Shown: in pieces, positions 18,023-19,477 of the stretch
How positions within the stretch are numbered: the first letter of the stretch is position 1
How the letters are laid out: each line of letters begins with the position of its first letter
Assembly (NCBI GenBank): GCA_032252755.1
Contig: JAVUPY010000008.1
Span: 1 to 48,780, forward strand
DNA: 48,780 nt
DNA from: Terriglobia bacterium
GTDB lineage: Bacteria > Acidobacteriota > Terriglobia > Terriglobales > Acidobacteriaceae
Direction: 5' to 3'
Notes under the pieces: generated by a model
The model's input: only the letters and a program-made list of their open reading frames with translations
Told to the model about the DNA's origin: nothing
The model's database searches: none
Position numbers and translations under genes: made by a program

Positions 18023-18523
18023 TCAACGCGTTGCTGCGTGTTCCGCCATCCACTTCTGGGCGTCGGCGGATTTGAACCACTCACCTGCAACCTGCTTCGT
18101 TGTCACGTTCAGGCGATTCCACACATTGATGCTGGCGATGGCGATGATGAGTGCTGCCAGTTCGCGTTCGTCGTAATGGCGCGCGGCTTCGTCGTAAATC
18201 TCGTCGGGCACGGGGTCAGAACGGTCGCTGAGGCGAGTGACAGCTTCCGTCAGGGCGAGAGCGGAGCGCTCGGCATCGGTGAAATAGGGTGCATCACGCC
18301 AGGCCGCGACGGCATAGAGGCGCTCCTCGGTCTCACCGGACATTTTTGCCAGCCGGACGTGCAGGTCGACGCAGACGCTGCAGCCGTTGATCTGGCTGGC
18401 TCGCAGGTGGACGATTTCGAGCAGGTTTGCAGGAAGTGCCTTCTTCACGGACTCGCCGAGAGCCTGAAGAGCGGTCATGGCCTCAGGGAAAATAAAGACG
18501 GGTTGTTTCATACGTGCTTGCAT
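18023..18523 (-). CDS. AhpD-like / carboxymuconolactone decarboxylase family protein
   Basis: ATG 18523 is chosen because AAGGAG precedes it at about 10 nt; an ATG four codons on lacks a ribosome site. The 166-residue protein carries the peroxidase-type motif E36 ... C48-S-V-C51-x3-H55 (EIVHLRASQINGCSVCVDLH), the proton-relay/CxxC arrangement of AhpD-like alkylhydroperoxidases. TKQVAGEWFKSADAQKWMAEHA closes the fold. Proteins of this type are the usual genomic partners of ECF41 sigma factors, and it is divergent from one here. A minus-strand ECF41-like promoter (18574-18600) lies upstream. A role in oxidative or electrophile stress is inferred. Confidence 0.93.
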   Translation of the reverse strand: MQARMKQPVFIFPEAMTALQALGESVKKALPANLLEIVHLRASQINGCSVCVDLHVRLAKMSGETEERLYAVAAWRDAPYFTDAERSALALTEAVTRLSDRSDPVPDEIYDEAARHYDERELAALIIAIASINVWNRLNVTTKQVAGEWFKSADAQKWMAEHAATR

Positions 18524-18538
18524 GAGGTTGCATCTCCT

Positions 18539-18565
18539 TGTCACATAGTGTTGGTTTCGTTCGTC
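18539..18565 (+). promoter_or_regulatory. ECF41-type promoter for the sigma factor gene
   Basis: TGTCACA at 18539-18545, a 16-nt spacer, then CGTC at 18562-18565. This matches the published ECF41 promoter motif (TGTCACA in the -35 and CGTC in the -10 region) in every base. The sigma gene starts 36 nt further on, at 18602, so the arrangement implies autoregulation. Confidence 0.75.
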
Positions 18566-18573
18566 ACCACCAT

Positions 18574-18600
18574 GACGGAGCAGAAAAAGGAATTGTGACT
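18574..18600 (-). promoter_or_regulatory. ECF41-type promoter for the AhpD-like gene
   Basis: On the minus strand AGTCACA (18600-18594), a 16-nt spacer and CGTC (18577-18574). This is six of seven plus four of four against the ECF41 motif, with the same spacing as the plus-strand copy. The AhpD-like start codon is 50 nt downstream, at 18523. Confidence 0.7.
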
Positions 18601-18601
18601 G

Positions 18602-19477
18602 ATGAATCAGAACGAATGGCTGGCGACGAAATTCCAGGAGAACCGTGGGCACCTCAGGGCGGTGGCATATCGAATGCTGGGCTCGGCGACCGAAGCCGAG
18701 GACGCAGTGCAGGAGGCATGGCTGCGACTTACGCGGGCGGAGACGAGCGAGGTGGAGAACCTGGGTGGATGGCTGACCACGGTGGTGGCGCGGATTTGCC
18801 TCGACATGCTGCGGTCGCGGACCTCGCGACGTGAGGATTCGCTCGAAGAGCAAGTGGCCGAGCCGGTCGCGAAGACGGAGTCGATGAACCCGGAGCAGGA
18901 AGCGGTGCTGGCGGATTCGGTGGGGTTGGCACTGTTGGTCGTCCTGGACCGACTGAGTCCGCCGGAGCGGCTGGCCTTTGTACTGCACGACATGTTCGCG
19001 GTGTCCTTCGAAGAGATCGCTGCGATTACTGGCCGGACGGTAGGGGCGGCACGGCAGTTAGCGAGCAGGGCGCGACGACGAGTGCAAGGGGCGGATGTTC
19101 GTGGGGCGAGGGCGCAGGAGCGCGAAGTGGTGAATGCGTTCTTAGCCGCGTTGCGAAAAGGCGACTTCGAGGGATTGTTGGCGGTGCTCGACCCAGATGT
19201 CGTGGTGCACATTGATGAAGCCGCAGGTCGTCCGGGAGCGCCGAGGGAGATCAGGGGAGCGGCGAACTGGGCTCGTGGGGCAATCGCGTTCCGCCAGATG
19301 GCACGGTTCGTGGAGCCGATGCTGGTAGATGGATCGGTGGGATTGGTGTTCGCGCCGGGAGGAAAGTTGGAGCGGGCGCTCCGAATCAGGTTGGAAAATG
19401 GAAAGATTTCGGAGGTGGAGATTATTGGCCAGCCGGGGCGGTTGCAGGAGTTGGAGTTGGCGGTAGTGGGGGAATGA
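18602..19477 (+). CDS. ECF41/SigJ-type sigma factor with fused SnoaL-like C-terminal domain
   Basis: A 291-residue sigma-70 family factor. Region 2 is at ~10-75 (FQENRGHLRAVAYRMLGSATEAEDAVQEAWLRL), region 4 at ~112-165 (LDRLSPPERLAFVLHDMFAVSFEEIAAITGRTVGAARQLASRARRRVQ). Then follows a ~120-residue SnoaL/NTF2-like extension with EAAGRPG in the place of the ECF41 DGGGK/R motif and QPGRL in the place of NPDKL. In ECF41 factors this extension replaces a separate anti-sigma factor. It starts divergently from an AhpD-like gene, the hallmark context of the group, and carries a consensus ECF41 promoter in front. It directs RNA polymerase to its own and the partner promoter; the inducer is unknown. 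Confidence 0.95.
   Translation: MNQNEWLATKFQENRGHLRAVAYRMLGSATEAEDAVQEAWLRLTRAETSEVENLGGWLTTVVARICLDMLRSRTSRREDSLEEQVAEPVAKTESMNPEQEAVLADSVGLALLVVLDRLSPPERLAFVLHDMFAVSFEEIAAITGRTVGAARQLASRARRRVQGADVRGARAQEREVVNAFLAALRKGDFEGLLAVLDPDVVVHIDEAAGRPGAPREIRGAANWARGAIAFRQMARFVEPMLVDGSVGLVFAPGGKLERALRIRLENGKISEVEIIGQPGRLQELELAVVGE

Follow-up and report, generated by a model that had tools for sequence, protein, structure and literature searches.

The window analysed here, a 48,780-nucleotide stretch of contig JAVUPY010000008.1 from a Terriglobia bacterium, contains two divergent genes, one for an ECF sigma factor and the other for an AhpD-like protein of the carboxymuconolactone decarboxylase (CMD) family, separated by a spacer of 78 bp (18524-18601; Table 1). 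The sigma factor matches the Pfam families Sigma70_r2 and Sigma70_r4_2, and its C-terminal extension matches SnoaL_2 weakly (E = 1.3e-5; 26.1 bits against a cut-off of 27 bits); among NCBIfam models, the best match is SigJ, with 252.6 bits (cut-off 271). The AhpD-like product matches Pfam CMD (1.3e-19) as well as TIGR00778 (ahpD_dom), and a divergent CMD/AhpD gene is one of the neighbours, along with oxidoreductases and epimerases, by which ECF41 sigma genes are recognized.

The spacer contains a perfect copy of the ECF41 promoter motif, TGTCACA-N16-CGTC, directed toward the sigma gene, and a second copy with one mismatch, on the opposite strand, directed toward the partner gene. The -10 elements of these two putative promoters stand face to face, as CGTC and GACG on the forward strand, with 8 bp between them. 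A check of the sequence bore out the coordinates and the 16-nt spacers of both motifs as given by the sequence-only reading of this DNA, and also its description of two interlocked ECF41-type promoters that serve a divergent sigma/AhpD pair, with each core lying within the leader of the other gene. The -35 element of the partner-directed promoter sits between the likely ribosome-binding site and the start codon of the sigma gene, and the placement of this ribosome-binding site is similar in many relatives.

Table 1. Genes and predicted promoter features of the divergent sigma/AhpD locus (window coordinates)
Feature	Position	Strand	Description
AhpD-like carboxymuconolactone decarboxylase family gene	18023..18523	-	166 aa; divergent partner of the sigma gene
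Likely ribosome-binding site of the AhpD-like gene	18534..18539	-	AAGGAG, from sequence; abuts the sigma-directed -35
Sigma-directed promoter	18539..18565	+	-35 TGTCACA 18539-18545, N16, -10 CGTC 18562-18565; 0 mismatches
Interlocked bidirectional promoter unit	18539..18600		62 bp; -10 to -10 gap exactly 8 bp (18566-18573); conserved register
Predicted transcription bubble	18563..18576		-11 to +3; 14 bp common to both promoters; arithmetic from published start-site distance
Predicted +1 of the partner-directed promoter	complement of C18565	-	distance from PMC3616915
Predicted +1 of the sigma-directed promoter	G18574	+	distance from PMC3616915
Partner-directed promoter	18574..18600	-	-35 AGTCACA 18600-18594, N16, -10 CGTC 18577-18574; 1 mismatch
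Likely ribosome-binding site of the sigma gene	18587..18592	+	AAGGAA, from sequence; within N16 of the partner-directed promoter
ECF sigma factor gene	18602..19477	+	291 aa; sigma2-sigma4 plus SnoaL_2-like C-terminal extension; SigJ/ECF41-like

Significance of the promoter motifs

Neither promoter site is significant by itself. The whole window contains 8 matches to the motif with at most two mismatches, compared to 13.8 expected, and the whole genome contains 62 matches with at most one mismatch, compared to 66 for a reversed control pattern, so that there is no excess at either scale; given that the genome-wide matches are at the control level, we rejected the motif alone as evidence. The two sites are credible because of their placement in the spacer, where only about 0.0006 matches with at most one mismatch are expected within 78 bp, and because of their conservation, rather than because of motif counts.

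The sequence-only reading proposed a search for the same motif pair in other genomes, and such pairs were found, far above the chance level. Exact face-to-face pairs are present in 7 of 299 genomes from the class of the window and in 2 of 246 genomes of Actinomycetes, all with a gap of 8 bp, whereas the same search with the reversed pattern gave none in either set (0 of 299 and 0 of 246). Shuffling of the upstream regions of the protein-retrieved loci described below likewise yielded no strong pairs.

A register of 8 bp across phyla

We scanned the genome_contigs collection (84,980 species, according to its description) for two perfect motifs arranged face to face with a gap of 0-30 bp and obtained at least 119 stretches, compared to about 0.45 expected by chance from simple arithmetic. 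Among the 119 matches listed, the gap is 8 bp in 114, 9 bp in three (L060, L086 and L139), 11 bp in one (L046) and 12 bp in one (L143); the register, then, is not absolute, because gaps of 9, 11 and 12 bp occur. The listed matches come from Actinomycetes, Rhizobium and other Proteobacteria, Acidobacteria, Chloroflexi, Leptospirillum, Chthoniobacterales and others. The conservation of an 8-bp gap between the -10 elements across phyla is the notable part of these observations and goes beyond the earlier reading.

A gene for a SnoaL-type ECF sigma factor starts at or near the unit in 113 of the 119 listed loci, with offsets of -24 to +144 nt as estimated with tblastn. The other six comprise three loci that are cut at the locus edge (L050, L084, L154), one with a short, distant match (L068) and two in which no sigma match was found nearby (L069, L089). 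The latter two (L069:1102-1163 and L089:5046-5107) are perfect interlocked units located beside an AhpD gene, with no sigma homologue found close by in the retrieved locus, and could perhaps represent orphan targets or loci that have lost their sigma genes.

Across from the sigma gene, a divergent AhpD relative was identified in 57 of the 113 listed sigma-adjoining loci; all 57 keep the gap of 8 bp, and the offset of the AhpD gene takes 28 different values among them. Because longest-ORF calls are unreliable in high-GC loci, neighbour genes were assigned by tblastn and all-against-all comparison. For the 57 pattern loci without AhpD, clustering combined with Pfam searches on representatives identified NAD-binding/epimerase proteins (21 loci and L094), PNPOx-like proteins (11), VOC/glyoxalase proteins (7, plus L082 and L086), MFS proteins (2), one ABC ATPase, one CMD-like protein without a Pfam match, and one YCII relative that falls just below its cut-off; this typing leaves 10 of the 57, four without an open frame and six with an unmatched frame.

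A second set of loci was retrieved by protein similarity, from genomes of the class of the window and of Actinomycetes; these sigma homologues were chosen by their similarity to the window sigma, so that the set leans to its subfamily, and the additions from Actinomycetes are the best 60 by score among the listed matches without a locus. Among 289 genomes from the class of the Rhizobium locus L047, sigma matches at E 1e-50 were detected in only two, one of which is the centre genome of L047 itself. Of 118 protein-retrieved loci, 53 have a good sigma-directed promoter, and in 30 of these 53, an opposing site scoring at least 8/11 is present at a gap of 8 bp, compared to at most 3 of the 53 at any other offset between -27 and +40. 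The reciprocal search gave the same picture: of 27 good partner-directed promoters, 22 have a sigma-directed site at a gap of 8 bp, with at most one at any other position. Homologous loci lacking one of the motifs, which the earlier reading had named as a finding that would count against it if regulation were kept, do occur, with no opposing site of at least 8/11 at gap 8 in 23 of the 53. With 11 further loci (129 in total), both promoters score at least 10/11 in 26, of which 23 are face to face with a gap of 8 bp and three are back to back, whereas the remaining 103 have no pair at this threshold. One of the 23, L184, is also a locus of the pattern scan; without it, the proportion is 22 of 25.

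Sigma factor type and promoter architecture

The DGGG motif is a feature of ECF41 sigma factors. In the window sigma, neither DGGG nor an NPDK (NPDKL-type) pattern is present, and WLPEP is absent from the linker between sigma2 and sigma4, where the sequence LEEQVAEPVA is found instead. This is a difference from the ECF41 factors of PMC3426412, in which WLPEP is described as highly conserved; the distal NPDKL-type motif is named as an ECF41 feature in PMC7730460. The ECF41 label used in the sequence-only reading is upheld in part, by the promoter motif and by the SnoaL-fused, ECF41-like sigma, and is corrected in that the canonical motifs WLPEP, DGGG and NPDK are absent from the protein. Judging from its sequence, the window sigma is an ECF41-like, SnoaL-fused factor encoded beside an ECF41 promoter motif, and not a canonical ECF41. 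Other ECF groups with a fused SnoaL domain are ECF56, 205, 294 and 295 (PMC8999054, PMC7730460).

The type of sigma factor and the architecture of the promoter pair are associated. Among 144 entries with a face-to-face pair, a set that includes duplicates and pattern-selected loci, WLPEP is present in two and DGGG in none. Of the full-length protein-retrieved loci with any of WLPEP, DGGG or NPDK, 0 of 19 have a face-to-face pair, compared to 24 of 48 without these motifs (22 with gap 8, one with gap 9 and one with gap 26). Perfect back-to-back pairs, by contrast, occur in 9 of 246 genomes of Actinomycetes, with spacers of 6 (five genomes), 20, 23, 24 and 24 bp and none in the control. These pairs resemble the window unit in having the same motif in divergent orientation near a SnoaL-fused ECF sigma gene but differ from it in that the -35 elements face each other, the spacing varies and the sigma carries WLPEP and/or DGGG (9 of 9 loci, L292-L300). 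Five of these nine loci share the 6-bp spacer between the -35 elements. Of the nine exact face-to-face loci, eight encode intact sigmas without WLPEP or DGGG, and the ninth, L289, contains only a decayed sigma fragment. The sigma gene is located about 490 bp from the unit in L283 (face to face) and about 770 bp from it in L298 (back to back).

The association between sigma type and architecture is not a strict rule. The three back-to-back strong pairs of the protein-retrieved set (L017, L028 and L272, among which the spacers are 10, 17 and 27 bp) include two from the class of the window, L017 and L028, which lack WLPEP and yet are arranged back to back, with -35 spacers of 10 and 27 bp. The partner promoter of L028 keeps CGTC-N8-GACG without a recognisable second -35 element, possibly a remnant of an interlocked unit.

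The genome from which the window comes contains three perfect matches to the motif, one of which is the window locus and another of which (C23:33405) lies inside a 624-aa open frame. A perfect single motif at C64:82639-82665 is found about 500 bp upstream of a second sigma match (C64:83172-83855; L002, L011). Both sigma types coexist in this genome, given that the second sigma is of the WLPEP/DGGG/NPDK type.

What keeps the gap at 8 bp

One explanation of the arrangement would be that a short intergenic space brought two ordinary, independent promoters close to each other, with a gap of 8 bp as a packing accident inherited from one ancestor. The intergenic space of only 78 bp in the window fits this explanation, as does the observation that the start of the sigma gene often abuts the partner-directed -35, and a single origin of the unit is possible. 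Nevertheless, a gap of 8 bp is retained in all 11 loci whose gene starts both lie 12 nt or more outside the unit, which led us to reject the packing of ribosome-binding sites as its cause. Furthermore, between loci with 40-50% identity in their sigmas, identity of the central N6 is 24%, lower than the 30% that column composition would give; the letters of the spacer have therefore turned over whereas its length has not, and this saturation weakens recent common ancestry as a sole cause. Back-to-back pairs of the same motif, as noted above, vary in spacing, from 6 to 27 bp. On balance, we consider a packing accident unlikely. In a quick FastTree tree with 191 rows, up to 19 of the loci being represented twice (L163-L165, L167-L171, L173-L181, L184 and L025 coincide with pattern loci), the partner family changed at least 12 times, compared to 5 changes of the gap state. 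Thus, the gap is kept at 8 bp while the partner enzyme, the leader length and the spacer letters vary.

A possible cause for this constancy lies in bases shared by the two promoters. In Sinorhizobium meliloti, transcription from an ECF41 promoter starts 9 nt downstream of CGTC (PMC3616915), and the string shown in Table 1 of PMC6180224 has a G at the position 9 nt after the -10. With a gap of 8 bp, the base 9 nt after each -10 is the first G of the opposing GACG, and we predict the start sites there (Table 1), with the distance borrowed from a single-direction promoter of another ECF41. In a set of 43 gap-8 units that includes pattern-selected loci, all 43 have T at the predicted -1 position; for the 114 listed pattern units, with both strands pooled, the proportions there are 80% T and 18% C. 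Promoters without an opposing site at gap 8 have a purine at the predicted +1 in 22 of 28 cases, or in 20 of 24 after removal of L163, L169, L180 and L210, in which the pairing uses a different gap or spacer. The rare gap variants point in both directions. L046 and L143, with gaps of 11 and 12 bp, retain T and G at 8 and 9 nt downstream of the rightward -10, which would be expected if it is the distance to the initiator that is conserved. The gap-9 units L060, L086 and L139 have T at 9 nt downstream of the rightward -10 and G at 10, which counts against a strict start-site rule. Given that each -10 block would double as the initiator of the other promoter, an insertion or deletion within the gap would change the distance between -10 element and start site in both directions.

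A proposed two-way promoter served by one sigma factor

Taken together, these observations lead us to propose, with a probability of about three in four, that the unit is a fixed-register, symmetric bidirectional promoter for one ECF sigma, which serves its own gene and that of an enzyme partner, with the register fixed by shared bases. The motifs, the register, its conservation, the exchanges of partner and the saturated spacers on which this proposal builds are all read from sequence. Under this scheme, the window sigma would bring RNA polymerase to one and the same piece of DNA, facing either way, with rightward transcription leading into the sigma gene itself, in positive autoregulation, and leftward transcription leading into the gene of the enzyme partner. 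Each CGTCA block would be the -10 of one promoter, and TGACG on its opposite strand would form the initiator (-1 to +4) of the second promoter. Each predicted +1 G would be opposite position -9, the last -10 base, of the other promoter. A transcription bubble extends from -11 to +3, so that the predicted bubbles coincide; sharing of these bases is the probable cause of the fixed register.

RNA polymerase holoenzyme covers about -40 to +20. The predicted footprints at the unit overlap by about 50 bp, and occupancy would therefore be exclusive, with room for one polymerase at a time; the earlier claim that both promoters could not be occupied at once is thus supported, in that double occupancy appears very unlikely from the known holoenzyme footprints. 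The window sigma would be released by its C-terminal domain, a mechanism reviewed in PMC8999054, and would then direct polymerase to the interlocked unit. At a high sigma level, the two directions would compete, and the partner direction would limit runaway autoactivation. In Escherichia coli, the two directions of a bidirectional promoter compete only if one of them is strongly active, and noise is reduced in the constrained direction (PMC12825309). By this comparison, competition at a high sigma dose, capping autoactivation, should also be expected here. For single ECF41 promoters, both the dependence on the sigma and the start site have been shown in print (PMC3426412, PMC3616915).

Two further explanations were considered. 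The sigma-directed promoter might be the only one that works, the partner-directed half being vestigial or mere initiator sequence. Of the 30 gap-8 pairs in the protein-retrieved set, 16 have the better site on the sigma-directed side, 14 have two equal sites and none has the better site on the partner side, and in the window itself, the partner-directed -35 has one mismatch. This mismatch, however, affects the first base of the -35, which accounts for 23 of 31 partner-side mismatches and is also the commonest on the sigma side (7 of 13). Moreover, six of the 23 strong gap-8 pairs have a perfect partner site and the other 17 a partner site with one mismatch, and in two species, ECF41 sigmas have been proven to target the enzyme genes (PMC3426412), so that a non-functional partner half seems quite unlikely. 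As a point against the proposed bidirectional promoter, a transcript directed toward the AhpD-like gene could also arise from a further, unseen housekeeping promoter.

The near-perfect dyad symmetry of the unit, with its central CGTCA-N6-TGACG, would also suit a palindromic operator bound by a dimeric regulator, rather than two promoters. This we regard as very improbable: the arms match, at the right spacing, a promoter whose dependence on ECF41 has been demonstrated (PMC3426412), the initiator follows a pyrimidine/purine pattern, and a gene for a SnoaL-type ECF sigma adjoins 113 of the 119 listed units. In addition, at 8 of 8 motif sites located 479-944 nt upstream of sigma genes, and presumably codirectional with them, the dyad is missing (opposing score at most 6/11). 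We found no evidence in support of an operator.

Relationship to known systems and implications

The bidirectional promoter proposed here has precedents in two bodies of work. The motif TGTCACA-N16-CGTC and its dependence on an ECF41 sigma were described by Wecke in 2012 (PMC3426412), and Table 4 of that paper includes 55 divergent loci, in which the motif precedes 36 ECF and 41 COE genes and often both, so that paired motifs in front of divergent ECF41/COE genes are already known in outline. The window locus shares with those ECF41 systems the motif and the type of partner (CMD, oxidoreductase or epimerase) but, in contrast to the window unit, the promoters tested in the available text of that paper are not interlocked pairs, and neither their relative register nor shared bases are mentioned there.

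Bacterial bidirectional promoters with divergent starts 7-25 bp apart have also been described (PMC10268837). In those studied by Warman, Grainger and colleagues (PMC12825309, PMC10268837), the -10 and start bases of the two directions overlap reciprocally within one pseudo-symmetric element, and one polymerase excludes the other. The window unit is likewise pseudo-symmetric, and with the predicted starts, its sequence geometry would fit such an overlap and such exclusion. The Warman/Grainger promoters, however, are housekeeping promoters with a shared -10, for which the commonest start separation is 18 bp, 10 and 23 bp also being common. The window unit departs from this commonest sigma70 register: it is an ECF promoter with two separate -10 elements, an 8-bp gap between them, two -35 elements and a predicted start separation of 9 bp, and one of the genes that it would drive encodes the sigma itself. 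In the open-access literature searched, which covers part of the key papers, we found no report of a fixed register, of shared -10/initiator blocks or of a split in architecture by sigma subfamily, and the novelty of the fixed register is therefore provisional.

More tentatively, the units might constitute a distinct class of direction-neutral ECF promoter, in which one 14-bp bubble is melted whichever way the polymerase binds and the output of the sigma is split between self and target at each firing. Through the fixed register, the target direction would then act as an inherent brake on autoactivation, and such units would be the mark of a separate subfamily of SnoaL-fused sigmas in many phyla, a possibility that we consider doubtful but worth stating.

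If the proposed reading is correct, bidirectional promoters are not merely a by-product of the symmetry of the sigma70 -10 element, and there is a dedicated promoter of this kind, with one register across phyla, for an alternative sigma factor. The five loci with rare gap variants (L046, L143, L060, L086 and L139) provide natural test cases for the start-site model. The unit would be a compact natural circuit in which self and target are expressed from one mutually exclusive element, making competition, noise and the limits of feedback directly testable, and it would provide a simple signature to find targets of SnoaL-fused ECF sigmas. Finally, ECF41-like factors would split into two subfamilies with mostly opposite promoter architectures.
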